This document shows positions 7,765 to 33,866 of a DNA stretch of 64,000 bases, one piece after another. Origin of the DNA: Acinetobacter larvae (GTDB lineage Bacteria > Pseudomonadota > Gammaproteobacteria > Pseudomonadales > Moraxellaceae); contig NZ_CP016895.1 in NCBI RefSeq assembly GCF_001704115.1, positions 1,302,001 to 1,366,000 of the forward strand. Direction: 5' to 3'. Every line of letters starts with the position of its first letter. Within the stretch, counting starts at the first letter, position 1. Made by a program: the position numbers and the translations under genes. The notes under the pieces were generated by a model. That model saw only the letters and a list, made by a program, of their open reading frames with translations, was not told where the DNA came from and made no database searches.

Positions 7765-9183
7765 TTAATCAGCACGACGCCAAATCGTACCTTGACGGGT
7801 ATCTTCTAGGACTATACCTTGTGCGAGTAATTGCTGACGTATTTCGTCAGCGCGAGCAAAGTCTTTGGCTTTTTTGGCATCTTGTCGTTGTTGAATAAAA
7901 TCAGCTATTTCGGCTTCGGATAAGCTGAGTGCTTGCTGACCAATATCAGATTTTAAAAAGTCATCGGCATCATGCTGTAATAGACCAAGAATATCAGTAA
8001 GATATCTTAAGGTTGCATAATACGCTGCAGCCTGTTCAGCATTTTGTTCTTTGACTGCACGGTTAAGCTCTTTGGTGACTTCAAATAGTACGGCGATGGC
8101 TTCAGGGGTATTAAAGTCATCACGCATGGCGACATTAAAACGTTCAATAATGTCCGGGAATGGTGTGGATTGCTGTTGTGTATAGGCTTGTTGGTAAGCT
8201 TTGGCAGCATGATAAAAGCGGCTGAGTGCCGATTTTGCTTCTTTTAAGGCACTGTCCGAGAAATTAACAGGGCTTCTATAGTGTGATGAAATGATAAAGT
8301 AACGGATCACTTCTGGATGGAATTTATCCATGACATCGCGAATGGTGAAGAAATTACCCAGTGATTTTGACATTTTTTCGCCATCAACATTGATAAATCC
8401 AACATGCATCCAATAGTTAACATATTGTTCACCTGTCGCCGCTTCACTTTGAGCGATTTCATTTTCATGATGTGGAAATAATAGATCAGAACCACCGCCA
8501 TGAATGTCAAAATGGTTACCTAAGCAGCAGGTTGACATGGCAGAACACTCGATATGCCAACCAGGACGACCAAGCCCCCAAGGTGATGGCCAAGCAGGTT
8601 CATTTTCTTTGGCATGTTTCCAAAGCACAAAGTCAAAGGGGTGTTGTTTTTCAACTTCGACATCAACACGTTCAGATGCACCCGCTTGCATGTCATCCAG
8701 TTTACGACCGGATAAACGACCGTATTGCTTAAATTTTTCAACTTGAAAATATACATCACCATTGCGAGATGGATAGGCTGTACCTTGATCGACCAGTTGT
8801 CCAATCATATTCTGCATTTGCTCAATATAATGTGTGGCACGTGGTGATTGGTCTGGTGCTAAGCAACCTAAGGCATTGGCATCATCATTCATGGCTTGAA
8901 TAAAACGATCCGTCAATTGCGCAATACTTTCTTGGTTCTCATTGGCACGACGAATGATTTTGTCATCAATATCCGTAATGTTCCGAATGTAACGCACTTT
9001 CCAACCTTGGCTACGCAAGAAACGCACAATAAAGTCAAAAGCAACCATGACACGTGCATGACCAATATGACAATAATCATAAACAGTCATACCGCAGACA
9101 TACATATCTATATGGCCTGGGTTACGCGGAATAAACTCTACTTTCTGACGTTGCTCTGAGTTATATAGAACAAAAGGTTGCAT
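7765..9183 (-). CDS. cysS: Cysteinyl-tRNA synthetase
   Basis: A class I synthetase that activates cysteine and charges tRNA-Cys in the cytosol. The 472-residue length is normal. HIGH is at 39-42 and KMSKS at 270-274. The active-site zinc ligands are C30, C213, H238 and E242. The helical DALR-type tail with [19 protein letters not shown] closes the protein. It is transcribed leftward with tRNA-Gly behind it, and divergently from kdsD across a 190-bp gap. Confidence 0.98.
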
Positions 9184-9375
9184 AGTGAATCACAAGCTGT
9201 CTAACAAGGTGCTTTATCATAACTTAAGCATAATATTTCACAAAGCCCTGCGGGGGAAATTATGCTTTTATTGAAAAATATACATTTATCGAATAAGGAA
9301 ATGCTTCTGCTATGTTAAAATTAACAGCTTCGGTTTATCCTGCTTTAAAAGCTGTTTTAGTAAAGGTTTACGCTC

Positions 9376-10368
9376 TTGAATTCATCGAATTGTCTTGAAC
9401 CCATTGATTTTGAAAAAGTCGCATTAGAAACTTTGGCTTTGGAACGTCATGCAATAGAAATCCTCGCAACACAAATTGATCATCGTTTTCGCCGTGCATG
9501 TGAGATTATTTTGCAATGTAAAGGACGTTTAGTGGTGACAGGCATGGGGAAATCTGGTCATATTGGACGCAAAATGGCCGCAACTTTTGCCTCGACTGGA
9601 ACCCCTTCGTTTTTTATGCATCCGGGCGAGGCTGGTCACGGCGATCTAGGCATGTTGGTACGCGGTGATGTTGTGATTGCCATTTCCAACTCTGGTAAGA
9701 GTGATGAAATCATGATGTTGATGCCACTGATAAAACACTTACAAGTTCCCCTCATTACGATTAGTGGTGATGCTACTGGACCGATGCCACAAAGTGCCGA
9801 TGTTGCGCTCACTTTAGGACCGGTACAAGAGGCATGCCCCTTGGGGTTGGCACCGACTTCAACCACAACTGCTACCTTGGCTTTAGGCGATGCTTTGGCC
9901 GTAGCTTTATTAGATGCGCGTGGTTTTACTGCAGATGATTTTGCACGCTCGCATCCAGCTGGCGCATTAGGAAAACGACTATTACTACACGTCAAACACC
10001 TTATGCATAGCGGTGATGCGTTACCGAAAGTCTATCCAGATACTCCGCTCAATAAAGTACTGTATGAAATTTCAGATAAGCGTTTGGGAATGACGACAAT
10101 CGTTGATCACAATAATAAGCTATTAGGTATCTTTACAGATGGCGATTTGCGCCGTTTAATCGATCGTCAACAAAGCTTTGATGTCAATTTACCTATTTCT
10201 GAAGTGATGATTCGCCAGCCTGCAACGATTTCCAGTGAGGCACGTGCTGTAGAAGCTTTAGAAAAAATGAATGAACGAAAAATTACCCAATTTATTGTGG
10301 TGGATGCTGACAATACCACGATTGGCGTGATTAGCATGCACGATCTGATTCAAGCAGGGGTAAATTAA
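9376..10368 (+). CDS. kdsD: D-arabinose 5-phosphate isomerase
   Basis: It interconverts ribulose 5-phosphate and arabinose 5-phosphate, the first step of Kdo synthesis for lipopolysaccharide. The protein has 330 residues: a SIS domain (about 40-175) with GMGKSGHIGRK and SNSGKSDE, and two CBS domains (about 210-330) with GIFTDGDLRR and GVISMHDL. The start is a TTG; no in-frame ATG precedes the SIS core, and AAGG lies 9 bases upstream. It opens a tight run with kdsC, lptC, lptA and lptB, so Kdo supply and LPS export are expressed together. Confidence 0.95.
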   Translation: MNSSNCLEPIDFEKVALETLALERHAIEILATQIDHRFRRACEIILQCKGRLVVTGMGKSGHIGRKMAATFASTGTPSFFMHPGEAGHGDLGMLVRGDVVIAISNSGKSDEIMMLMPLIKHLQVPLITISGDATGPMPQSADVALTLGPVQEACPLGLAPTSTTTATLALGDALAVALLDARGFTADDFARSHPAGALGKRLLLHVKHLMHSGDALPKVYPDTPLNKVLYEISDKRLGMTTIVDHNNKLLGIFTDGDLRRLIDRQQSFDVNLPISEVMIRQPATISSEARAVEALEKMNERKITQFIVVDADNTTIGVISMHDLIQAGVN

Positions 10369-10370
10369 AC

Positions 10371-10916
10371 ATGGCATCCTACGTATTACTTGAACAAGCA
10401 CGTCATATTGAAGCATTGGTTCTAGATGTCGACGGTATTTTAAGCGATGGTTTTGTGAGTTTTACCAATAGTGGTGATGAAATAAAATCTTTTGATATTC
10501 GAGATGGCTTGGGCATGAAATTGGTGCAACAAGCGGGTTTGAAAGTTATTGTCATTACTGGGCGTAAAAGTCATATTGTTGAAAAACGTATGCAAGATCT
10601 TGGGGTGGATTTACTCTATCAAGGTCGTGAAGATAAAGGGACGGCTTTAACGCAAGCTTGCCAACAACTGGCTTTGGATCCAGAAGATTGTTTGTATATG
10701 GGGGATGATTGGCCAGACCTTTCTGCTTTTGCAATTGCGGGTATGAAAGTGACTGTTCCAAATGGTCATGTTGAAGTTCGCAGACGCGCTGATTTGGTCA
10801 CGCAAGCTATGGGTGGGCGTGGTGCAGTGCGCGAAGTTTGTGATATGTTATTAATGGCTAAAGGCGCTTATCAGCCATTGCTTGAAAAATATGTGGCAGC
10901 ACCACATACATCTTAA
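10371..10916 (+). CDS. kdsC: 3-deoxy-D-manno-octulosonate 8-phosphate phosphatase
   Basis: A HAD-superfamily phosphatase that removes phosphate from Kdo 8-phosphate. The nucleophile and acid are D19 and D21 in LVLDVDGILSDG. Motif II is VITGR, and motif III with the late acid pair is GDDWPD. The 181-residue C0-type protein lacks a cap domain, as usual for tetrameric KdsC. It begins 2 bp after kdsD. Confidence 0.95.
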   Translation: MASYVLLEQARHIEALVLDVDGILSDGFVSFTNSGDEIKSFDIRDGLGMKLVQQAGLKVIVITGRKSHIVEKRMQDLGVDLLYQGREDKGTALTQACQQLALDPEDCLYMGDDWPDLSAFAIAGMKVTVPNGHVEVRRRADLVTQAMGGRGAVREVCDMLLMAKGAYQPLLEKYVAAPHTS

Positions 10917-10942
10917 TTCTTTGCACCTTTGAGCTTGGTTAT

Positions 10943-11485
10943 ATGGATACACGAATACTTTACTTGGCTGCTGTGATCATTGCATCGATCAGTGGAGCAT
11001 ATTATTACTATAGTGGTAAAGGTCAAAAACTGGAAACACAAAATAGCAGTAATATGGTTTATTCTGCGGATGGGCTGGATGTGCTGCAAACCAATGAGCA
11101 AGGTGATTTATATATTCGTGCGGAGATTGAGCATTTAGAGCAAAATCTACAAAATGATACATCGAAGCTAAGAAAAATAGATGCGACGATGTATTTAAAT
11201 AATCAAGTTGATGCAACCTTTAAGGCCAATACCGCTGCTGGGTTTAATCAGAATGAAAAAATTATATTGTCAGGTGATGTCAAAGCTACGAAAGTGTTAC
11301 AAACTGGTCAGATGATTTTTACCACGGATCAGCTCACACTCTTTCCGAAGCAACGTCAGCTGGAAACGCAACAACGAATCAATATTACCTCACCTGGTTC
11401 ACAGTTTGTTAGTCAGGGTTTAAAAGCAGATTTTAATTCTGGTCAATATGATTTCTTCAATATTCGAGGGGAATATGTCCCATAA
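10943..11485 (+). CDS. lptC: LPS export protein LptC
   Basis: A 180-residue bitopic protein: an N-terminal membrane anchor (about 5-23, ILYLAAVIIASISGAYYYYS) followed by a periplasmic beta-jellyroll. LptC takes LPS from LptBFG and hands it to LptA. Repeated beta-strand patterns such as GLDVLQTNEQGDLYIRAE support the fold, and position between kdsC and lptA supports the name. Its last codons overlap the lptA start by 11 bp. Confidence 0.92.
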   Translation: MDTRILYLAAVIIASISGAYYYYSGKGQKLETQNSSNMVYSADGLDVLQTNEQGDLYIRAEIEHLEQNLQNDTSKLRKIDATMYLNNQVDATFKANTAAGFNQNEKIILSGDVKATKVLQTGQMIFTTDQLTLFPKQRQLETQQRINITSPGSQFVSQGLKADFNSGQYDFFNIRGEYVP

Positions 11486-12035
11486 TTTTACAGTGACGCG
11501 TTCATATCATATGCTACGTCAATTTATTTTCTGTGCCGCAACGCTTTGTTCTATGCATAGTTTTGCTTTAGACAGTGATCGGAATCAGCCGATTTCATTG
11601 GTTGCCGACCGTGCAACCTATAATGATAAAACCGGTGTCACCACTTATAGTGGTAACGTTGTGATTCAGCAAGGTACTTTGAAATTACAATCTGCTTCCA
11701 TCGTCGCGCAGTTAAATAAAGATAAGCAAATTAGTGCTGTGACTGCAACGGGGGCGCCTGCTAAATTTCAACAGCAGCAAGAAGGTAAAAAAGGATTAAC
11801 CCGCGGTGAAGCGCAGAAAATTACCTATAATGCTGAATCGGGTATTATCACACTGCTTGGCAATGCTTATATTTACCAAGATGGAGCCAGTTTTCGTGGT
11901 AATACCTTAAAATACAGTATGAATAAAGGTGATATTGAAGCGGCGGGTAGCTCAGGTGGTGGTACAGGCAATAAGCGAATTGAAATTATTATCCCGCCAT
12001 CTGCAACCAAATCCTTTCCGGGAGCCCGTGACTAA
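11475..12035 (+). CDS. lptA: LPS transport periplasmic protein LptA
   Basis: A 186-residue periplasmic bridge protein carrying LPS across the envelope. A signal peptide occupies about residues 1-32 and ends ...CSMHSFA. The mature part has the OstA-type pattern with [19 protein letters not shown] and [23 protein letters not shown] start at 11448 is possible, but GAGGGG just before the ATG at 11475 favours the shorter form. Its TAA overlaps the lptB ATG (TAATG). Confidence 0.93.
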
Positions 12036-12781
12036 TGCAGCAGAATACACCACAAGGACGCAGTTTAACGATTCGTCATTTGGCTAAAAATTATAACAAA
12101 CGATGGGTGGTTAAGGACGTTTCATTCAATATGCAGAGTGGACAAATCGTTGGTTTGCTCGGTCCCAATGGTGCTGGAAAAACCACGAGTTTCTATATGG
12201 TTGTGGGACTGGTTCGCATGGATAAAGGAGAGATTTATCTGGATGAACACGATATCTCAGATTTAGCCATGCATGAACGTGCGCAAAAAGGTATAGGCTA
12301 CTTGCCACAAGAAGCCTCGATTTTTAGAAAACTCAGCATTGCCGATAATATCATGGCTATATTGGAGACGCGTAAAGATCTCAATAAACAGCAACGGCAA
12401 CAACGTTTACATGAGTTATTGGAAGATTTTAAAATCACGCATATTAAAGACTCCTTGGGCATGAGTGTTTCAGGTGGTGAGCGTCGCCGTGCCGAGATTG
12501 CTCGCGCACTTGCGGCAGACCCTAAATTTATGTTGCTTGATGAGCCCTTTGCTGGGGTAGATCCCATTTCTGTTGGGGACATCAAAGACATTATTCGTAC
12601 TTTAAAAGATCGTGGTATTGGGGTACTGATTACCGATCATAATGTGCGCGAAACCTTGGCAATTTGCGAGCATGCTTATATTGTGAGTGAAGGCTCTGTT
12701 ATTGCCGAAGGAACACCCGAAGAGGTGCTCGCCAATGAAATGGTACGCGAAGTTTATCTTGGTGAGGACTTTGTTCCTTAA
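12035..12781 (+). CDS. lptB: LPS export ABC transporter ATPase LptB
   Basis: The cytoplasmic ATPase that powers LPS extraction by LptFG. Walker A is GPNGAGKTT, the Q loop is GYLPQE, the signature is SGGERRR, Walker B is [13 protein letters not shown], and the switch histidine lies in ITDHN. The length of 248 residues is standard. It is the last gene of the run and is followed by a strong terminator. Confidence 0.97.
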
Positions 12782-12810
12782 CTAAACGCAATGTGCCAAT
12801 GCTTCAGCCT

Positions 12811-12840
12811 AAAACCCATTTCGCCATAAGTGGGTTTTTT
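12811..12840 (+). terminator. Terminator of the kds-lpt operon
   Basis: AAAACCCA pairs with TGGGTTTT around TTTCGCCATAAG and is followed by more T. It lies 30 bp after the lptB stop. Confidence 0.85.
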
Positions 12841-12965
12841 ATGGCGAATGTTTTGTTATCTATGCGCTACGTTGGCAATTTTATAACCAAGGTGTGGGAT
12901 TTTAACGACAACAGTCTTGGTGGTATGGCGCTACCGATGCGTATTATAGTGTTTCGGTGATAGAT

Positions 12966-13373
12966 TTAGGGATGCTCTTGGGGGGTAAAGACAATCCGAA
13001 CGTGTGGATTTTGAATATAAAATTGTTCACGCGGTCCATTGGCTTTAAAGCTTGGATGCCAAGCGCGCAATTCTGATTCGGATAACCACTGTAGTTGTAG
13101 CTGTTGATCAATTTGATTGACATTAAATTGCGACAAGGCTTTGATGGTGGCACGACAATTTTCTGATTCACCTGTTCGCAGTAAAGATACTTGTAACTTG
13201 GTAGCCGGACCAAACATGGCATCGTTTTCACGGCATTGTCTGACCTCTACATGATAAGCACCTTGTGGTGATTCTAAATTATAAACCAATCGATTGACGC
13301 TATTGGAATGACAAGCAGATAAAACCACAACACTACTGATTAGAATAAGACAGCGATTTAATGTCATAGGCAT
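12966..13373 (-). CDS. Putative small lipoprotein
   Basis: A 135-residue protein with a lipoprotein signal of about 21 residues (LNRCLILISSVVVLSAC). The mature part carries two further cysteines (RQCREND and ENCRAT) and ends in VRIVFTPQEHP. It has no family I recognise; a role in the envelope is inferred from the signal alone. The ATG at 13367 is an equally good start. It converges on lptB. Confidence 0.6.
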   Translation of the reverse strand: MPMTLNRCLILISSVVVLSACHSNSVNRLVYNLESPQGAYHVEVRQCRENDAMFGPATKLQVSLLRTGESENCRATIKALSQFNVNQIDQQLQLQWLSESELRAWHPSFKANGPREQFYIQNPHVRIVFTPQEHP

Positions 13374-24489: not shown

Positions 24490-24523
24490 GCCCATAAAAC
24501 TTATCCAAAATCCCAAAATCCAT

Positions 24524-24569
24524 AAAAAAACCGCGATAAACGCCGATCTGGATCGGGCGCTTATCGCGG
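24524..24569 (-). terminator. Terminator of the fecIR-TonB-receptor unit
   Basis: CCGCGATAA (24531-24539) and TTATCGCGG (24561-24569) pair perfectly, with GATC/GATC further inside. On the minus strand the hairpin is followed by seven T. It may also slow transcription from catM. Confidence 0.8.
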
Positions 24570-24609
24570 CGGCTGATGCTGGGAGAGATAAGCCTATATG
24601 CTTATATTT

Positions 24610-24657
24610 CTTGTTTTCTTGTTTTCTTGTTTTCTTGTTTTCTTGTTTTCTTGTTTT
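24610..24657 (+). repeat. Tandem repeat (CTTGTTTT)x6
   Basis: Six exact copies of an 8-base unit lie between the receptor stop codon and its terminator. Perfect identity suggests slippage, so copy number probably varies between strains. Confidence 0.95.
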
Positions 24658-24700
24658 AAGTGAATTGCATGACTTTTGTTTGGAGTTCATGCTGATGGAT

Positions 24701-27445
24701 TTACCATTTGTACTGAACCGAAGCACGAATGGTACGCCCTGGTGACGCAATCCATATTTTAGACTGCGGATTTAAATAATAACGGTCGGTTAAATTGTCA
24801 ACGGCCAAATTAGTCGTCCAATGTTGATTGATTTTATAGTCCATATATAAATCGACAAAGCTCAGTGAGGGCGCACCATTAAATAAAGCACGTTGTCCAG
24901 AGTTTGCAGTCATACTTAAGCCATTACCTGATTTACCTTGCCAACGTATGCGGATCCCAGCATCTAACTTACGGTCCAGTAACCGGGTCCCCAAGATTAA
25001 GTTCACCATTTGTTTGGGTTGCACTTGTTGCTGATAATAAGAATAGCTAAAGTCGGTATCGCATGGTGTCGACGGTTTTAAATAGGGATCACTTTCCCCC
25101 ATGGAAGCATCACAGATTTTGGTTTTGGCATAGTGCACATTTAAACCTGTATAAAAGGTGTCCATATCATAATTGAGCTGAAGCTCATAGCCTTTGATCT
25201 GATGTAAATCAAGGTTAAACCATGACAGCATGGCGTTACCATAGCTGCCATCTTCGGCATCGGCATAGATCCGGTTGATATAATTACGTGTTTTGTTGTT
25301 GTAATAAGAGAGTTTATAACTCAGCTGATCATGTTCGTTCAACAGGTTGTTGAACTGACCCTTGATGCCCACCTCAAAAGCTTTGGTGCTTTCGGGTTTT
25401 AGACCAGTCATACGTGCATTGGTTCCTTCAGCACCGGTATTTTCTGTAATGCTGGGCGCACGTTTACCAATAGAATAGCGTGAATAAGCGCTTAAGCTCG
25501 GTATAAACTGATAATCAGCAACGAAAACCGGTGAAAATAAGCGATAACTTTGTTGATGCATCCCTAATGATTTGCTGACGACCTGACCATTCTCACGTAC
25601 GTTTTCGTATTTATCACTGGCATCATCGGTGGTCTGACTGCGGTTAAACCGGAAGCCGCCTTGTAGGGTGAGTTTATCTAATGGATGAATGATCAGGTTG
25701 GCCGTGCTGCTGATATCTTCCCATTCGGCATTGATCAAGGAATTCTTCAGACTTTGGGTATCGACTTGGCTATTTTCTAGCTCAGGTAAGAGACTGGCAT
25801 TTATCTTGGCATTTTCATAAGCAGCCCCGAGTTCTAATTGAACATCGCCTAAATAGGGCACATCATGCCAAGTCGAGATGTTGTTGAGATTAAAACCATT
25901 GCGCTGTTCTTTTTTACGGTTGTAGTTTTGCTCGACATAGAGTGACATGGCAAAGTTGGTATATGCCTCAACGGTATTACGCATAAGCCAGACGTTGCTG
26001 CTTAGATTAAGCAATGGATTATCCGCTGGATTATAACGATAACTTAAATTGGCACTGTGCATATCCGATTCAGATTGAGGAAACTCGATAAAGCCTCGGG
26101 AGCCTGCTTTTTCTTTGTCGCAAATATCAATCCCTCCCCAAAGCGATGGACAATCCCAACCGTAGCGAGAGCCCATGATTTGACCATTTTTCTGTAATTG
26201 ATGGCGATAGGTCAGTTCAATATCTTGTTCAGATGAAATTTTATATTTTGATTTGAGTAAGATCGATTCTTGCTCTAAAGAGGTATTGGGTTGTTCTTTG
26301 CCTGGATCAATAAATTTATTGGTGGGTAAAACTTTGCCATTAAACTCGGTGACGTAGTCATATTTGGCGACGCCTTTTTTACCGGTAAAATAGTTACCGC
26401 GGTTATTTTGGCTATACGCAGCTAATAGATCCCATTGTGTATCGCTATAGGCCAAGGCGAATAGACCATTCCAGCCTTTAAACTGACTTTGCTTACGCGC
26501 TTGTGGCATGGTGGCATAATGATCATAGGTATATTGGTCATAAGAACTATAGGTGGGATAGTTGCTACTATGTGGTGCAATCGAGTTATTTTGGGTGCCC
26601 AATTTAATGGTGCCACCAAACTTTTTACCTTCTAATAAAATATCTTCAACTTGCAATGTTTGTGCTACCACTTCACCTGCGTTGGCATTTGAAGAAGAAG
26701 GATTAAGGCTATAGCCTTTTTGTACGCGAATAGAAGAAATCAAATTGGGATCGATATAGGTTCTATTTTGCCCGCCCGCATAGCCATGGTATTCGAAGGT
26801 TTGTTGTTTGACCCCATCAATGCTGACCGCAACGCGATTATGCATTTGTAACCCCCGTATATTGACTTCCAGTGTTCCGCCATTATTACCATCTGAGCTT
26901 TCTACGCCAGGCACACCTTTGAGTAAATCTGCGGGGCTACTGCCGCCAAACCGATTCATATCTTGTTTGGAAATATAGGAAATAGATGCTGGGCTTTGAT
27001 AGGGGTTAGCTTGCGCATACAGCTCAATGGGCTGTAGTTGAACAATATTATTGTGCGCTTGCTGATCTGGGAGAGCTGTGTCGGTGTTTTTTTTGACCAA
27101 CACATAGCCTTTACCCGATGCTTTTACACGATAGGGCGTGTTGTGCAGTAGCTCGGCAAACCCTTGTTCTAGTGTATATTGTCCCGACAAGCCTGCGCTG
27201 GGAGCATCGAGTAACTGATCTGCATTCATCGCGATATTCACACCCGCTTGTAAAGCAAAAGCACTCAGTGCTTGGCGTAATGTGGTGGGCTGAATTTGAT
27301 AATGTTGCGCTGAATGGGACACAGCAGCAGGGGGATTGGCATACAATGCACTGCTCGCAAGACAGAGTTGTATGGCCAACACCAAAGGTTTCAGTGCTGT
27401 CCGTTGTGTGAAATATTGCCTTTTTGAATGTTGATCCGCCTGCAT
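24701..27445 (-). CDS. TonB-dependent receptor with signalling (STN) domain
   Basis: An outer-membrane transporter of 914 residues. A signal peptide ends near SSALYA (about 35). An STN domain at about 46-118 talks to FecR. The plug is at about 140-265 with FGGSSPADLLKGVPGV and NIRGLQMHNRVAVSIDGVKQ (two separate strands), and the 22-strand barrel ends in an aromatic residue (...QYKW). Plug features resemble haem/haemoglobin/transferrin-type receptors, but no haem-binding FRAP/NPNL box was found, so the ligand is open. It is the last gene after fecI and fecR. Confidence 0.88.
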   Translation of the reverse strand: MQADQHSKRQYFTQRTALKPLVLAIQLCLASSALYANPPAAVSHSAQHYQIQPTTLRQALSAFALQAGVNIAMNADQLLDAPSAGLSGQYTLEQGFAELLHNTPYRVKASGKGYVLVKKNTDTALPDQQAHNNIVQLQPIELYAQANPYQSPASISYISKQDMNRFGGSSPADLLKGVPGVESSDGNNGGTLEVNIRGLQMHNRVAVSIDGVKQQTFEYHGYAGGQNRTYIDPNLISSIRVQKGYSLNPSSSNANAGEVVAQTLQVEDILLEGKKFGGTIKLGTQNNSIAPHSSNYPTYSSYDQYTYDHYATMPQARKQSQFKGWNGLFALAYSDTQWDLLAAYSQNNRGNYFTGKKGVAKYDYVTEFNGKVLPTNKFIDPGKEQPNTSLEQESILLKSKYKISSEQDIELTYRHQLQKNGQIMGSRYGWDCPSLWGGIDICDKEKAGSRGFIEFPQSESDMHSANLSYRYNPADNPLLNLSSNVWLMRNTVEAYTNFAMSLYVEQNYNRKKEQRNGFNLNNISTWHDVPYLGDVQLELGAAYENAKINASLLPELENSQVDTQSLKNSLINAEWEDISSTANLIIHPLDKLTLQGGFRFNRSQTTDDASDKYENVRENGQVVSKSLGMHQQSYRLFSPVFVADYQFIPSLSAYSRYSIGKRAPSITENTGAEGTNARMTGLKPESTKAFEVGIKGQFNNLLNEHDQLSYKLSYYNNKTRNYINRIYADAEDGSYGNAMLSWFNLDLHQIKGYELQLNYDMDTFYTGLNVHYAKTKICDASMGESDPYLKPSTPCDTDFSYSYYQQQVQPKQMVNLILGTRLLDRKLDAGIRIRWQGKSGNGLSMTANSGQRALFNGAPSLSFVDLYMDYKINQHWTTNLAVDNLTDRYYLNPQSKIWIASPGRTIRASVQYKW

Positions 27446-27656
27446 ACCGCATCCTCAAATATAATGGGTCTCTTACACTATGTATGACGAAGCTCTGCGT
27501 AAATCACGACATGATTTTGCGCAATTTTTTTAATTTTTTTATAAAATATTGTTTATATTATTGAAAATAAACATTATTTTTTAGATGTTTAATGTTTGGG
27601 GCATTGTCTCTGCATTGTTCGTAGCTGCTTGCTGGAGTACCCGATGACGGCATTGC

Positions 27657-28733
27657 TTATTTTTTAATGCTATGAACATAACGAATATAGGGCAAGGGTT
27701 GTCTAATCTGGATCGGGAGACTGTCTTGCAATAAAGTATAAGCCTGTTGTGGATCATCTAGGGGTAAAATGGCGGTTACATGCAAGCCATGCAGATCGGC
27801 AGCGCGATAATAAATCTTATCTTGCTGATAACTTTGCAGAATATCCAGTACTTGCGAGAGCGGCATTTGATCGACAATGAGACGATGCTGTTGCCATGCC
27901 TGTTGATACAAAGCAGGGCTGATAGCCTGTATGGCGTGTATGCCATTGCCATCAATCATCACCTGTTGACCCGCTTGAATGATTTGAGTTTGTCCTGTTT
28001 GCTTACTGTGTACGACAACTTTAGATTCCAACATGGTCAAGATACTTTGTTCGGCACTATGCTGTACCATAAAACGTGTGCCCAATGCTTGTATGTCTGC
28101 ATATGTGGTGCTCACGGTAAATGGGCGCTGCGGATCTTTGGCAACATCGACCATAATATTGCCGCTGAGTAGCTCAATGCGCCGTTGTGTTGGGTCAAAA
28201 TGAATATTATAGGCACTTTCCCCACTGATCTTGATGTGACTTTGATCAAGCAATTGTTGCTCAGACCATTGTTGATAATGACTACGTTGATCGGCGAGCC
28301 AGTAATTGACTGGTAAAAATTGCCAACTGAACAGTACTGTCAAGATACCCAATATACAGAACATGGACAGTGCAGAGCGATAAGAAAATTTCTTTTCCAA
28401 TTGCTGCTGTTCCTGAATAGCATGTTCTACGATCTCACTCTGTGCAAAATGACTGTCAGTTGATTCAGCGACTGCGCTTGGAATGTGCGGCGTAGGGTAT
28501 TGTGTCTGTTGCAATTGCTGTAAGTGTTCGAGTTGATCAATCATCACCTGCATACTACGGATGGCTTGGGCATGGCTGGGATCGGCATCTTGCCAGCGTA
28601 GAAATGCGGCATATTGTTCTGCATCACAGTCGTCACTGCTGATCTCCACCAACCAGGCAGCAGCCTGTTCGATCACCTCATCTGCAATAGCATGGGGCGA
28701 TTCGGTTGCGGTCGTTGGGATGGATGGCGTCAT
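27657..28733 (-). CDS. FecR-family anti-sigma/signal transducer
   Basis: A 358-residue inner-membrane regulator. An N-terminal DUF4880-type domain (about 18-65, with AAWLVEISSDDCDAEQYAAF) binds the sigma factor. One membrane segment lies near 140-160. The periplasmic FecR domain (about 170-270) contains SGNIMVDVAKDPQRPFTVST and ALGTRFMV, and an STN-like end follows. It relays receptor occupancy to the sigma factor 10 bp upstream. Confidence 0.9.
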   Translation of the reverse strand: MTPSIPTTATESPHAIADEVIEQAAAWLVEISSDDCDAEQYAAFLRWQDADPSHAQAIRSMQVMIDQLEHLQQLQQTQYPTPHIPSAVAESTDSHFAQSEIVEHAIQEQQQLEKKFSYRSALSMFCILGILTVLFSWQFLPVNYWLADQRSHYQQWSEQQLLDQSHIKISGESAYNIHFDPTQRRIELLSGNIMVDVAKDPQRPFTVSTTYADIQALGTRFMVQHSAEQSILTMLESKVVVHSKQTGQTQIIQAGQQVMIDGNGIHAIQAISPALYQQAWQQHRLIVDQMPLSQVLDILQSYQQDKIYYRAADLHGLHVTAILPLDDPQQAYTLLQDSLPIQIRQPLPYIRYVHSIKK

Positions 28734-28743
28734 GCTATGAAGA

Positions 28744-29256
28744 CTATCCAGCTTGGCGAATTTGATAGCAATAGACCAAGGCTTTCGTCAAATCGCGTTG
28801 TACGGTTTTGACAGATAGCTGTAACTGTGCAGCGATCTCAATTTGAGAAATACCGTCGAGATAATGCCATAACAAGATTTTTCGTGGACGTTCTTCTAAA
28901 CGACTTAGGGTAAGTGCCAATTGATCGAGGAGTTCAATCACACTCAACAATTGTTCCGGAGAGGGATAAAATTGTTCATCAGCCCATTGGCTTGCATAGT
29001 GCAGGTAGTTTTGTTCTATTTTTTCACGGCGTGCTTGATCGACAATAATATGCTTGGCGGTAGTACATAAAAAAGCACGTGGTTCTTTGAGTTTAAATAA
29101 TTCTTTAGATTTTAAGATTCGAACAAAAGTATCTTGTAAAACATCTTCAGCCCGATCAGTTGAACTGAGCTTATTGCGTAGCCATTGATAGAGCCAAAAA
29201 TGGTGCTGTTGATATAAATCACCGACCAATGCGGTCAAATCTGCGGGGATAACCAT
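28744..29256 (-). CDS. FecI-like ECF sigma factor
   Basis: A 170-residue extracytoplasmic-function sigma factor. Region 2 (about 20-85) has DRAEDVLQDTFVRI, and region 4 (about 110-165) has LSRLEERPRKILLWHYLDG and a helix-turn-helix. It would direct polymerase to the receptor promoter when FecR signals. A Fur-type box is 48 bp upstream, so iron starvation is probably the first switch. Confidence 0.92.
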   Translation of the reverse strand: MVIPADLTALVGDLYQQHHFWLYQWLRNKLSSTDRAEDVLQDTFVRILKSKELFKLKEPRAFLCTTAKHIIVDQARREKIEQNYLHYASQWADEQFYPSPEQLLSVIELLDQLALTLSRLEERPRKILLWHYLDGISQIEIAAQLQLSVKTVQRDLTKALVYCYQIRQAG

Positions 29257-29303
29257 GAGGCTGCTATAGGGGAGATGATCAAAAGAATTTGGCTATTTTA
29301 TTG

Positions 29304-29322
29304 TGAATAAGAATTATTATCA
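29304..29322 (-). promoter_or_regulatory. Fur-box-like sequence before fecI
   Basis: TGAATAAGAATTATTATCA resembles the 19-bp Fur consensus, with the GAATAAGAATTATTAT core arranged as A/T-rich hexamers. It lies 48 bp before the sigma-factor ATG, where a promoter is expected. Confidence 0.6.
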
Positions 29323-29382
29323 AGTGTGTTGTTTAGATAATCTATCAGATCGCTTCAGGAGGCTTAAGGATTATGTTTAGCA

Positions 29383-29444
29383 GTCATTTTAATTCAAGCC
29401 AGACTGTAGCAAAAGATACTCGAAGCTTTGAGAATTAAAATGAC
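29383..29444. repeat. Perfect 13-bp inverted repeat
   Basis: GTCATTTTAATTC (29383-29395) and GAATTAAAATGAC (29432-29444) are exact inverse complements around a 36-base spacer. They lie between the ECF transporter operon and fecI. It could be a transcript-ending hairpin or the ends of a tiny inserted element; it has no T tract. Confidence 0.8.
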
Positions 29445-29512
29445 CCGATATGCAGTGAATATCGTAAATAGCTCACAGCTTATTGATCTTAAGCCGGGCT
29501 AAATTCTTTGGA

Positions 29513-30949
29513 TTAGACAGTTTGTCCGGTGGCTAAAAACGCAAATATTTGCTGTTCATGACCCGCCACGGTCATAAGCTCAGCACCTTGAGGGGTCAAT
29601 AAAATTGCCCGATGACAAGCCGCTAAAATAAACTCATAGTCATGGCTAATCATGAGAATCGTAGCATGCTGCGCTTTTTCATGTAGTATCGCTTTGATGC
29701 GTAGCATACGACCATAATCTAAGCCCGAGCTCGGTTCATCTAGAACAATAAATGGGCTGTTCGACATACAGGCAGCACCTATACAAATACGTTGTTTTTC
29801 TCCTCCCGAACGCATTTGCGGCAATTTGGTGCGCATTTCCCATAAATCGAGTTGTTGCAGTAAATATTTAGCATATTCACGCGCTGCCGCTGTTGTGCTA
29901 CCCAGTAAAAATTCCTTTTCAATGGTATCAAAAAACAGTTGTGCATCACTGTCTTGCATAACATAGTAGCTGTTCATCAGACGTTGTTTCGCGGTTTCAC
30001 CAGTACCCAATTTGCCTGTTTTGACGGGCAGTAATCCGGACAGTTGTTTGGCAAATGTGCTTTTACCAATGCCATTTTTCCCTAAAATAGCCACTACTTC
30101 ACCCTGTTGTAGCTGTAAATTGAGCTGTGGGAGTAGAACTTTCTGAGTATTTTGCAGATTAAAATTTTCACAGAGTACAATCTCTTGACTGTTTTTCGGC
30201 TGTTGTTGGGCAAGGTAATGCTGATAGTGCAAGGGGCGCAAACCCAAGGCCTGAGTATCCAGTGTGGCGAGCTCGTGGCGGTGATATTGTTGGCAGATTT
30301 TACCGTCTTGCATCACGATTAAACGGTCAATATAGTCTTTGAGAAAAAATAAGCGATGTTCAGACACCACAATACTTTTGCCACGTTGTTTGAGTTGTTG
30401 TAGACAGTGCCCAAGCTCAATTGCTGATTTTAAATCTAAGTTAGCGCTAGGTTCATCTAAAATAATCAAGGGATTGTCATAGACCAGACTGGAGGCTAAG
30501 GCAACTTTTTGTTTTTCACCCGAGGACAAGTGACTCACTTTTTGTGCCAATAAATGTTCAATCTTGAGCGCTGCACATGCAGCATGCACCCGTTGTTTAA
30601 GCTGTGCGGGTGGCATCGCAAAATTTTCACCAATTAAGGCAATTTCATCTTCAACACGATCACAGAGAAATTGTGATTTGGGGTTTTGAAAAACATTGCC
30701 GATCAGTTTGCCTAAGCCACCGACAGGATAATCCGCAATGGCTTTACCCAATAAGCTGATTTCACCGCTTAAATGCCCTTGATAATATTTGGGAATCAAG
30801 CCGTTCATAATCTTGGTGAGTGTGGTTTTACCACATCCAGAGGGACCAGTAATCAGCACCAATTCGCCTGCTTGAATATGCAAGTCGAGATCTTTAATCA
30901 CATGTCGTCCATCTTCATAATGGAAATTGACCCGATTTAAACGTAGCAT
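29513..30949 (-). CDS. ECF transporter ATPase, two fused ABC domains
   Basis: A 478-residue energy-coupling-factor ATPase holding both nucleotide-binding domains in one chain. Domain 1 (about 1-230) has Walker A GPSGCGKTT, signature LSSGEKQK and Walker B LIILDEPSANLD. Domain 2 (about 245-478) has GKNGIGKST, RSGGEKQR and FIVLDEPSSGLD. The ATG overlaps the end of the T-component gene by 13 bp. ECF transporters are common in Firmicutes and unusual in Acinetobacter. Confidence 0.9.
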   Translation of the reverse strand: MLRLNRVNFHYEDGRHVIKDLDLHIQAGELVLITGPSGCGKTTLTKIMNGLIPKYYQGHLSGEISLLGKAIADYPVGGLGKLIGNVFQNPKSQFLCDRVEDEIALIGENFAMPPAQLKQRVHAACAALKIEHLLAQKVSHLSSGEKQKVALASSLVYDNPLIILDEPSANLDLKSAIELGHCLQQLKQRGKSIVVSEHRLFFLKDYIDRLIVMQDGKICQQYHRHELATLDTQALGLRPLHYQHYLAQQQPKNSQEIVLCENFNLQNTQKVLLPQLNLQLQQGEVVAILGKNGIGKSTFAKQLSGLLPVKTGKLGTGETAKQRLMNSYYVMQDSDAQLFFDTIEKEFLLGSTTAAAREYAKYLLQQLDLWEMRTKLPQMRSGGEKQRICIGAACMSNSPFIVLDEPSSGLDYGRMLRIKAILHEKAQHATILMISHDYEFILAACHRAILLTPQGAELMTVAGHEQQIFAFLATGQTV

Positions 30950-31611
30950 AATCCACCTATAAAAATTGTAAGGAATATAGCCAATACCGCATAGTCTAAA
31001 AGACCAAAATGCAGTTGGTGATAACTGCTTCGTTCCCCAGCGTATTCAATTCCTTTACTGCTAATCGATTCAGCAATTTCACCTGCGGTATTGAGTGATT
31101 TATGGATCAGTGGAATGACAAGATATTGAAAACTATTGAGTGGGTGTAAAAGACCAATCTGTAATTTTCGAATGCGGATGGCATCTTTAATATTATGGAT
31201 TGACTCTTTTAAATCTGGAAAATAACGCATAGCAATCAGTAGCGGAATAATGACCTGCATAGGCAGTTTTAATTTTCGCAGTGCTGCAATAATTTGCCCA
31301 GTGGCATAGCTTTTCATCAGATCAGATAACAGTAAAATTAATATCATGCGATGTGATAAAAAAATAAAAATGGCAAAGAATTTAATCGCAGCAGAATGGG
31401 CATAATGTTGTAACAGATAGAGCAGTGCGTAGCTCAGTAGAAAATAGCAACTAAAAAATATAATACGTTTGCCGCCAGCACAGATATAGAGCAGGCTGGT
31501 GGCAGTGAGTAAGCTATAGAAAATATTCTGACTGACGCTGGCTAAAGCCAGCCCAGCAATCAGCATCAATAAAAAGATCAAGCGTGGATCAAATTTTAAG
31601 ACCATGTCCAA
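30937..31611 (-). CDS. ECF transporter transmembrane (T) component
   Basis: A 224-residue membrane protein with about five helices (9-24, 32-47, 52-70, 80-98 and 205-222). The cytoplasmic coupling helices with IAALRKLKLPMQVIIPLLIA and a second DAIRIRKLQ stretch are typical of EcfT (CbiQ family) and contact the ATPases. It lies 9 bp after the S component. Confidence 0.88.
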   Translation of the reverse strand: MDMVLKFDPRLIFLLMLIAGLALASVSQNIFYSLLTATSLLYICAGGKRIIFFSCYFLLSYALLYLLQHYAHSAAIKFFAIFIFLSHRMILILLLSDLMKSYATGQIIAALRKLKLPMQVIIPLLIAMRYFPDLKESIHNIKDAIRIRKLQIGLLHPLNSFQYLVIPLIHKSLNTAGEIAESISSKGIEYAGERSSYHQLHFGLLDYAVLAIFLTIFIGGLCYV

Positions 31612-31620
31612 TATACCTGA

Positions 31621-32226
31621 TTAGTGTAATTGGCTAAGTTTGTGCTGTTCGGTAAAATATTTTTGGTAGAGTAAGACCCCAAGTAATGCACCTACAAAGG
31701 CGAAAGCGGCAGTAAAGCTTACCACTTTGCTAATAAAACCAATACTGGAATAATTCAATACCAATTGCTGCGCTTGTGCTTCATTAAAAATGTCTGAGAA
31801 TTGCGCCATAATGCCAGATTGACCTAGCACCCAAACAAAGAAACCTGGGTGTAAAGCGAAAATCGCGCCGTAAACGGTATAGGCAAAAACGATGCGCGGA
31901 TACGAACGATAGCCTTGGCGCATTAATAAAATTTCAGCAATCAAGGCAGCAGGCATAATCACCATACTGATTTGCCATGCCCCAATCAGGCTATATAAAA
32001 TCGAAAACACTGCGCCAAAAATAATAAAACAACCTGCTTTACTGACTTTTTTAAGCATGACCACAAAAATCACACCGCTTAACAAGAGTGATGGACCGAC
32101 ATGGGCATAAATACCGATGTCACCCAGTAAGGGGGTAATAAATGAAGCGGCGAGGGTGTTGCATAAAAAAGCCAAACTGGACAAGACACCAATGATGGAG
32201 AGGTCTTTAATATTGATTTTATTCAT
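31621..32226 (-). CDS. ECF transporter substrate-binding (S) component, MptD type
   Basis: A 201-residue protein with about six membrane helices. Family features of the MptD/Trep_Strep S components include KDLSIIGVLSSLAF near the start, GDIGIYAHVGPSLLLSGVIF and IMPAALIAEILL. S components fix substrate specificity; the ligand of this family is not established. Being upstream of a FecIR/TonB receptor unit and downstream of a Fur-like box hints at an iron complex. Confidence 0.85.
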   Translation of the reverse strand: MNKINIKDLSIIGVLSSLAFLCNTLAASFITPLLGDIGIYAHVGPSLLLSGVIFVVMLKKVSKAGCFIIFGAVFSILYSLIGAWQISMVIMPAALIAEILLMRQGYRSYPRIVFAYTVYGAIFALHPGFFVWVLGQSGIMAQFSDIFNEAQAQQLVLNYSSIGFISKVVSFTAAFAFVGALLGVLLYQKYFTEQHKLSQLH

Positions 32227-32684
32227 AGAGATACCATTTTAATCAAGCAATTTAAGCAGAAAGCTACGCCAAACCGATTAGCGTTGTGATCAGTTGCAAG
32301 CATTGAATAGATGCGTGTTTTAGAAGAAATTTGCGATCCCAACGTCAGCATGTCGTGCTGTGTGAACGCTGGAATATCGTGCGTATAGGGAGTATGCGCA
32401 CCGTTGGCATGCAAGATAGCATACGCAAAAGCCCAGTCCATGAATTGCTAAATCCTGTCATTAGATTGCTAAATAAGTACAATTATCATTTGCAATTAGC
32501 ATGCTGGGATCGTGAAAAGATAAAGTAGATGACCGTGTGGGCTCAAATCGAGCCATAGCATCTCGCAATACAACATCAAGATCACTGTGGTGACGAAGAA
32601 TATTCCTGCAAGTAGTTGCTAGCGTATCACCGCAGTGGCTGAGCCGATGTACTGCGTATTGACGAGATGCTGGTTGATCGGATT
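32227..32684. other. Leader of the ECF transporter operon and spacer to nimT
   Basis: It holds a Fur-box-like site and a 72-codon minus-strand frame (32223-32441) that overlaps the S-component start but lacks protein-like composition. I recognise no riboswitch. Confidence 0.5.
32475..32493 (-). promoter_or_regulatory. Fur-box-like sequence before the ECF transporter operon
   Basis: Read on the minus strand, GCAAATGATAATTGTACTT matches the 19-bp Fur consensus at 12 positions, including an unbroken AATGATAAT. It lies about 250 bp before the S-component start, so either the leader is long or the match is chance. Confidence 0.4.
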
Positions 32685-33866
32685 TTAGTCCGTCATCTGG
32701 CGATTACGACCTACCCATAAACCAATGATGCCAATCAGCACAGCCAGTAGGGTGCAGAGGATGAGTACGACATGCCAGCCCGCAAAAACATCATGTAGTG
32801 CGCCAAATAGCATTGGTCCAACAGCAGCCAGTAAATAACCGATACATTGAGACATGCCCGATAAAGCCGCAGCTTGCTGTGCGTTGTGGGTACGTAAACC
32901 AATAAAAGCCAAGCCTAAAATAATCCCAGCGCCAGTGCCTATGCCAAAGAAAATAGACCATAACAAGGCAAATTGTGGCGCTAACCATAAACCGAGTAGT
33001 GCAATGGCAGAACATGCCGCCACCGTTACGGCTGGAATACGTTGGTCATGTAGACGGTGTAAAATTGGTGCAATGATTAAACCGGGTAGCGCTGTTGCCA
33101 GTTGCATGATGCCGTGCAAAGAGCCTGCCTCAGTGGCAGATAAACCTGCATCGGCCAGAATACTGGGTAACCAACCGACGATCACATAATAAATAGTTGA
33201 GTTTAAACCTAAAAATAAGGTCACTTGCCAGGCCAATGCTGAGCGCCAGATACTATTTTGTGTGGACATTTGCGTGTTGTGGCTGTCGATCGCTTGTGCA
33301 GATTTAAGCTGGGTACTCCACACCAATAGGGTGCTGATGGGGAGCAGCAACAATGCCAATAATGCCCATTGCCAACCAAAGTGTTGTGCCAAGGGTATGG
33401 CCGTGGCTGAGCCCAATGCCGCTGCAATGCCCATGGTTAAAGCATATGCACCAGTAAGCGCGGCAACTTTATTGGGGAAATCACGCTTTACCACACTGGG
33501 GAGTAGCACATTGCCTGCTGCAATGCCCATGCCTAAAACCCATGTGCCCAAAAATAGGCTCCAGACATGACCCACTGAGCGCAGCAAAATGCCGATTGCA
33601 ATGGTCAATACAGCAATAAACAAAGCTTTTTCTAAACCAAATTTACGCGCAAATAAGGCACTGACGGGTGAAAGCAAAGCAAAAGCCAGTAGCGGCAAGG
33701 TGGTCAGTGCACCCGTTGCTACGGTGCTCAGTGCAAAGTCAGTTTGGATTAAGGGGAGTAAAGGCGGAAGCCCTGTAAATGGTGCACGTAAGTTGGTGGC
33801 AATCAATAAAATACCAATAAAGATCAGCAATTGACGACGGCTGGATCCTGTCTGTGAATGATTCAT
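32685..33866 (-). CDS. nimT: CynX/NimT-family MFS transporter
   Basis: A 393-residue major-facilitator protein with twelve predicted helices. The start region QLLIFIGILLIATNLRAPFT and the loop ARKFGLEKAL are typical of the CynX/NimT branch, which includes the E. coli 2-nitroimidazole and cyanate transporters. The ATG at 33866 follows GGGACC by 5 bases; an upstream extension of 25 residues is not convincing. It is divergent from an AraC regulator, the same arrangement as nimT/nimR. The substrate is inferred only. Confidence 0.75.
   Translation of the reverse strand: MNHSQTGSSRRQLLIFIGILLIATNLRAPFTGLPPLLPLIQTDFALSTVATGALTTLPLLAFALLSPVSALFARKFGLEKALFIAVLTIAIGILLRSVGHVWSLFLGTWVLGMGIAAGNVLLPSVVKRDFPNKVAALTGAYALTMGIAAALGSATAIPLAQHFGWQWALLALLLLPISTLLVWSTQLKSAQAIDSHNTQMSTQNSIWRSALAWQVTLFLGLNSTIYYVIVGWLPSILADAGLSATEAGSLHGIMQLATALPGLIIAPILHRLHDQRIPAVTVAACSAIALLGLWLAPQFALLWSIFFGIGTGAGIILGLAFIGLRTHNAQQAAALSGMSQCIGYLLAAVGPMLFGALHDVFAGWHVVLILCTLLAVLIGIIGLWVGRNRQMTD

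Follow-up and report, generated by a model that had tools for sequence, protein, structure and literature searches.

Does an energy-coupling factor (ECF) transporter that lies next to a TonB-dependent receptor carry an iron complex across the inner membrane of a Gram-negative bacterium, and if so, which one? This question is raised by a locus of Acinetobacter larvae in which the genes for the S component, the T component and the fused double ATPase (A component) of an ECF transporter, together called S-T-A, precede fecI, fecR and a receptor gene. The locus lies in the window, the whole 64-kb stretch that was analysed (positions 1302001-1366000 of the single-contig genome of 3.74 Mb). Gram-negative heme uptake usually makes use of a soluble periplasmic binding protein and an ABC permease. 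The available parts of two reports on Acinetobacter assign no inner-membrane permease to the hemO cluster (PMC8560813) and call the role of the hemT cluster unconfirmed (PMC10483418). If an ECF transporter imported iron complexes after their passage through a TonB receptor, this would add a new path across the periplasm and supply a candidate, open to direct test, for the inner-membrane step of hemO-type clusters; moreover, a family best known from Gram-positive bacteria is here kept behind an outer membrane. The parts are known; the novelty, if shown, would lie in pairing them directly behind an outer membrane. Such a case was absent from the titles and abstract openings among the literature matches listed; most subscription papers were outside the search.

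We favour the reading that two iron-controlled modules lie side by side and serve the import of an iron complex, with heme as the favoured cargo, and give it a probability of roughly 45%. In order of likelihood, heme is followed by a foreign siderophore and then by a chance neighbourhood of the two modules. In the first module, the heme-family receptor would take the iron complex, most likely heme or heme released from hemoproteins, across the outer membrane, and its STN domain would signal via FecR to FecI to induce the receptor's own gene. In the second module, the membrane-embedded S component of the MptD family would bind the cargo in the periplasm without a soluble binding protein, and the T component and the double ATPase would power its passage into the cytoplasm, in the manner of the heme importer LhaSTA of Staphylococcus lugdunensis. 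One of the two heme oxygenases encoded in the genome would afterwards release the iron. The cargo, the direction of transport and the cooperation of the modules are what we infer from the observed gene content, families, Fur-like sites and heme oxygenase genes. Heme is favoured because of the family tie to LhaSTA, the stand-alone arrangement of S-T-A, the HasR-like clade of the receptor, the presence of a heme oxygenase in all four Acinetobacter genomes that carry S-T-A (the carriers), one carrier (G075) that has a heme oxygenase but no FecCD-type permease over cut-off, the Fur-like sites on both units and the invariant residues His42 and His126 of S.

A complete ECF transporter upstream of a FecI/FecR unit

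All six genes are present on the minus strand in the transcription order S, T, A, fecI, fecR, TonB-dependent receptor (Table 1), just as the original prediction had placed the transporter genes, heading toward the fec unit on a common strand. Its range, 29304-32493, holds S-T-A and both Fur-like sites, with the fec unit outside it. S, T and A are tightly packed, and 256 bp separate A from fecI.

The S component scored above the cut-offs of both Pfam Trep_Strep (PF09605; 90.2 bits vs. 28.7) and NCBIfam MptD (TIGR02185; 81.9 bits vs. 76.45). The T component was above the cut-off of Pfam CbiQ (45.9 bits vs. 25) and has the EcfT chains 4hzu, 4huq and 5d3m as solved relatives; its score with the cobalt-specific model TIGR02454 was 19.5 bits, below the cut-off of 111.8. 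In the A component there are two ABC domains, and the Walker A and Walker B motifs occur twice each. S-T-A is an ECF transporter, with a T component and two ATPase domains encoded together with S. His42 and His126 of S are invariant in 13 aligned Acinetobacter-type sequences, and the run of hydrophobic stretches suggests that both reside on the periplasmic half of the protein.

Most named ECF transporters import vitamins or metals, and cobalamin, cobalt or zinc might be imagined as cargo here, the more so as T matches CbiQ and the receptor has a weak match to a B12-receptor model (38 bits, cut-off 599.7). However, S matches MptD/Trep_Strep models exclusively, and a Zur-type palindrome, which is present before znuA in three of the four carriers (the contig of the fourth is cut), was not found before S-T-A. 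We therefore regard a vitamin or metal as very improbable. Zur control of S-T-A was also rejected: a Zur-like match in one relative (17/23) had no equivalent in the others and lacked the core seen before znuA.

Cargo of related transporters

A guide to the cargo is LhaSTA. LhaS binds heme, and LhaSTA of S. lugdunensis imports heme and supplies the cells with heme iron; lhaSTA is located between isdJ and isdB, and lhaS is reported to carry a Fur box (PMC7299338). The family name MptD/Trep_Strep was not met for LhaS in the available part of that paper. Among 84 Staphylococcus genomes, Trep_Strep was found over cut-off in 30 and matches to the heme-binding NEAT domain in 14. Both occur together in six (G1048, G1059, G1081, G1097, G1103, G1104). 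In four of these (G1059, G1081, G1103, where the S gene is in pieces, and G1104) at most 3 kb separate the S gene from NEAT genes, and in G1048 and G1097 it lies elsewhere. The isd locus of G1081 (L118) reads isdG, srtB, a conventional importer, genes like isdK and isdC, an isdJ-like gene, A-T-S and an isdB-like gene, and its S protein is of the MptD family (123 bits vs. a cut-off of 76.45). Since L118 matches the published order of lhaSTA and its S is MptD, the family includes a proven heme ECF importer, in support of the earlier suggestion of a route for an iron complex. SiaFGH is a streptococcal heme ECF transporter; our literature searches did not turn it up.

Other relatives are found in siderophore-type surroundings. 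The second S-T-A of G1081 (L122) is part of an apparent yersiniabactin-like nonribosomal peptide synthetase (NRPS) cluster, a Salmonella plasmid (L055) has S-T-A in an apparent yersiniabactin-like locus with NRPS domains by Pfam, and in E. faecalis, Corynebacterium and Subdoligranulum S-T-A is located beside two fused ABC proteins. Siderophore-dependent uptake of iron by Streptococcus equi requires eqbHIJ, a putative ABC transporter encoded in the equibactin cluster, according to the available part of PMC3672683; EqbH presumably belongs to the MptD family. LhaSTA-mediated heme import and the siderophore-type loci together argue that MptD transporters are probably iron-complex importers with at least two cargoes. 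The best 120 of 832 matches of a further profile search, gut Firmicutes-like and enterococcal S proteins, carried no functional information.

The Salmonella plasmid is a conjugative IncFIB plasmid of Salmonella enterica subsp. salamae (CP053317), with a fused ABC pair and an MptD-type S-T-A (12001-13308, 8515-11714). Its S gene looks broken because of an in-frame stop after about 140 codons.

From these loci a second reading arises, in which the cargo of the ECF transporter and the receptor is not heme but a ferric siderophore that other organisms produce, for example of the phenolate-thiazoline type. It would fit the apparent yersiniabactin-like clusters of L122 and L055 and the requirement for eqbHIJ, as far as the presumed membership of EqbH holds, and the Acinetobacter ATPase groups weakly with members of siderophore arrangement. 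But two fused ABC proteins accompany S-T-A in 10/10 such loci read and are absent in 4/4 Acinetobacter loci, and the receptor is of the heme family and distant from the siderophore-type receptor L081 of the same genome (18.7% identity). We consider a siderophore as cargo rather unlikely.

The arrangement of the genes points back to heme. All four Acinetobacter loci are stand-alone, that is, without the fused ABC pair. The pair is present in 5/5 plasmid loci and in five of the 15 staphylococcal loci read; the other ten are stand-alone (in one of these, L120, the contig ends just past S) and group in a single clade (91/82 for A, 86/93 for S), in which LhaSTA is the one member with a tested cargo. 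The Acinetobacter transporter shares with LhaSTA the MptD-type S, the three-gene set of S, T and fused double A without two extra ABC proteins and a Fur box or Fur-like site before S; it differs in that LhaSTA belongs to a Gram-positive host without an outer membrane and has its ATPase on another branch. EqbHIJ is likewise a putative ABC importer of an iron complex and probably of the same family, but, according to the part of the report at hand, its NRPS cluster has EqbK/EqbL (YbtP/Q-like), which are lacking in the Acinetobacter loci.

The receptor and heme oxygenases

The best solved relative of the receptor is HasR (148 bits). In a tree of 15 receptors it shares a clade (94/99) with nine, and three of these nine adjoin heme oxygenase genes in fecI-fecR-heme oxygenase-DUF454 clusters. 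Judged from its sequence, the receptor is of the heme family, and heme is its candidate ligand. The elements of FecI/FecR surface signalling, a sigma factor of the extracytoplasmic function type, a FecR protein and a receptor with an STN domain, are all encoded; the best NCBIfam model of the sigma factor is FecI (135.7 bits, under the cut-off of 260).

A heme oxygenase is found in 4/4 carriers vs. 55/175 genomes of the genus (chance about 0.009, kinship ignored), and the A. larvae genome has two. In G075 the heme oxygenase gene is located beside an apparent fecI-fecR-receptor unit. A FecCD-type permease over cut-off was not found in this genome; there was one weak match, in the znu cluster, and the search did not extend to further kinds of heme permease, such as those for peptides.

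The receptor unit resembles the HasR/hemO clusters of Acinetobacter, as described in the available parts of PMC8560813 and PMC10483418, in its heme-family TonB receptor and FecI/FecR-type control, and some of the nearest relatives of the receptor adjoin a heme oxygenase. In contrast to these clusters, the A. larvae receptor has no adjoining heme oxygenase but an ECF transporter next door. Several heme-family receptor genes of A. larvae lie behind fecI/fecR-like genes (L064, L065, L076 and the one in the window). At E 1e-30 the genome yields at least seven receptor matches, and two of these are second pieces of the same gene.

Fur-like sites before both units

The Fur-like sequences predicted before both units are indeed present: both sites score 15/19 to the 7-1-7 palindrome (Table 1). 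This score is reached at three positions in the window, two of which are the sites before S and fecI, and none is higher. The E. coli 19-mer GATAATGATAATCATTATC gave a score above chance for the site before fecI (14/19, p 0.026) but not for that before S (12/19, p 0.54). Since the 7-1-7 palindrome, AATGATAATNATTATCATT, was picked after the 19-mer had failed for S, the result is support, not proof. The three other carriers have best sites of 15, 14 and 15 of 19 before S (shuffle p 0.01, 0.12 and 0.01), at differing distances from the gene. As controls, nine other fecI promoters scored 14-17/19 (among them that of L076, p 0.125), staphylococcal lhaS 17/19, two siderophore-type cluster genes 15 and 16 of 19, and one heme oxygenase gene merely 12/19.

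A promoter-like sequence, TTGATA-17-TAAAAT, precedes fecI and is the best minus-strand match in 24500-32800 (10/12); the promoter scan as a whole was no richer than shuffled sequences (16 matches vs. a shuffle mean of 21.4).

Distribution of the transporter

ECF transporters of this type are as rare in the group as had been supposed. Trep_Strep was found in 4/175 genomes of the genus and in 3/199 of a family sample, one of the latter being a piece of 67 codons. In an order sample 15/390 genomes had a match at E 1e-3 and 1/390, the A. larvae genome, was over cut-off. The 14 other matches scored 20-23 bits and were discarded; 12 lay within open frames of at least 280 residues. A phylum sample gave 1/398 at E 1e-6, again the A. 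larvae genome. The other carriers in the genus, G075, G081 and G082, keep the order S-T-A, and their S proteins are 63-65% identical to that of A. larvae.

A search of a database of 5.8 billion proteins gave ten clusters of close S relatives, including A. larvae S, among 898 scored candidates; two of them are named, Acinetobacter rudis and Salmonella enterica, and a profile search recovered the same ten. No close relatives were found in viral contigs or plasmids. One close S relative (64%; P0010) comes from a 17.6-kb contig assigned to Salmonella enterica serovar Poona, for which contamination or transfer may account. In another genus of the same family (G277), an N-terminal piece of a Trep_Strep S (L010, 8836-9030) follows a fused ABC pair; the rest of S is gone, apparent transposase remnants lie behind it and a TonB receptor is nearby on the opposite strand.

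Proposed heme import and the pairing reconsidered

A number of observations weigh against the proposed import of heme by two cooperating modules. The first concern the transporter. The Acinetobacter ATPases form a clade of their own that lies weakly near members of siderophore arrangement, namely E. faecalis (84/84) and, with Subdoligranulum, at 74/69. A common clade with LhaA and the stand-alone staphylococcal ATPases was rejected (p-AU, the p value of the approximately unbiased test, 0.0015; the test was run after the tree had been seen). For S, the test of a clade with LhaS gave p 0.24, with a very long Acinetobacter branch. The GHP histidine of the LhaS clade is absent from the Acinetobacter S proteins, which have the invariant His42 and His126 instead. 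Sorting the S tree by substrate was given up, as the Acinetobacter branch is too long to decide.

Further points concern the receptor. Its best NCBIfam model, TonB-hemin (TIGR01785), is reached with 284.7 bits, under the cut-off of 316.85. Two clade relatives linked to heme oxygenase are also under this cut-off (272 and 289.5 bits), and the HasR-like L076 of A. larvae is over it (552.9 bits). HasR-type receptors have two heme-ligating histidines, one in the plug and one in the FRAP loop. L076, which adjoins a heme oxygenase, has both. In the receptor of the window the FRAP-NPNL loop lacks a histidine where L076 has one, and plug His220 is displaced by two columns, so that, in difference to HasR, one ligand is missing and the other displaced. 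Among its clade relatives that are linked to heme oxygenase, histidines are absent from the plug and FRAP stretches of L063 and L080, and the single one of L059 is in the plug loop but in another column. Adjacency to heme oxygenase is not clustered on the 15-receptor tree (365/500 shuffles as low), and three further neighbours of heme oxygenase, the true HasR type included, are outside the clade of the receptor. Finally, the A. larvae genome has six FecCD-type importer matches, one in the znu cluster, that could do the same work as S-T-A.

The pairing itself was expected to be conserved in relatives, and this expectation failed. Neither fecI, fecR nor a receptor was found beside S-T-A in any of the three other carriers (about 20 kb read each). 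Receptor matches at E 1e-30 or better are present in 48/175 genomes of the genus, A. larvae included, but no close relative was found (29-32% identity across the full protein and at most 41% in pieces), up to five candidates having been scored per genome. With no linkage in three carriers and no close receptor relative, the pairing is therefore a feature of the A. larvae genome among the genomes examined. The two modules seem to have been inherited separately and combined locally, and they may still cooperate.

Chance has to be considered as well: S-T-A may import a nutrient of its own, and the fec unit may serve another inner-membrane importer. Besides the lack of linkage, the four genomes have S-T-A at no fewer than three chromosomal locations (the flanking genes are shared between G081 and G082), and fecI has a promoter-like sequence and a Fur-like site of its own. 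On the other side, Fur-like sites of equal rank, rare in the window, lie on both units, and LhaS, the sole family-checked relative with a tested cargo, takes heme. We place a chance neighbourhood behind a siderophore and consider it unlikely as well.

The predicted iron route across two membranes stands as far as the iron-complex family, the rarity and the Fur-like sites are concerned and is weakened by the pairing, conserved in none of the other carriers. It is tempting to go beyond import by two adjacent modules and to propose a complete Gram-negative heme route, in which the FecI/FecR-controlled TonB receptor would hand heme directly to S without a periplasmic binding protein and S-T-A would be a portable heme permease, also able to serve hemO-type clusters. 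This extension is doubtful, and we put it forward tentatively.

Other features of the locus

The neighbouring genes are seemingly unrelated: those for a CynX-type transporter and for a regulator of the AraC type flank the locus at one end and that for a CatM-type LysR regulator at the other.

Table 1 Genes and sequence elements of the locus, numbered from the first position of the window
Feature	Position	Strand	Remarks
S component, MptD/Trep_Strep family	31621-32226	-	201 amino acids; Pfam and NCBIfam matches
T component, CbiQ/EcfT type	30937-31611	-	224 amino acids, TTG start; Pfam CbiQ
A component, fused double ATPase	29513-30949	-	478 amino acids; overlaps end of T; two ABC domains
fecI-type sigma factor (extracytoplasmic function)	28744-29256	-	170 amino acids; Sigma70_r2 and r4_2
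fecR-type regulator	27657-28733	-	358 amino acids; FecR and DUF4880
TonB-dependent receptor, heme-receptor family	24701-27445	-	STN, plug and barrel
Fur-like palindrome upstream of S-T-A	32472-32490		15/19 to AATGATAATNATTATCATT
Fur-like palindrome upstream of fecI	29306-29324		15/19 to AATGATAATNATTATCATT
Promoter-like TTGATA-17-TAAAAT	29295-29323	-	overlaps Fur-like site before fecI
Open frame, 72 codons	32223-32441	-	between Fur-like site and S; stop overlaps start of S (ATGA)
13-bp perfect inverted repeat	arms 29383-29395, 29432-29444		between A and fecI; 36 nt between arms

The open frame of 72 codons upstream of S contains several histidines and has no counterpart in the three relatives, in which the best Fur-like site is nearer to S. 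The inverted repeat between A and fecI has no T run; a terminator, an attenuator or the end of an element are candidates for it.

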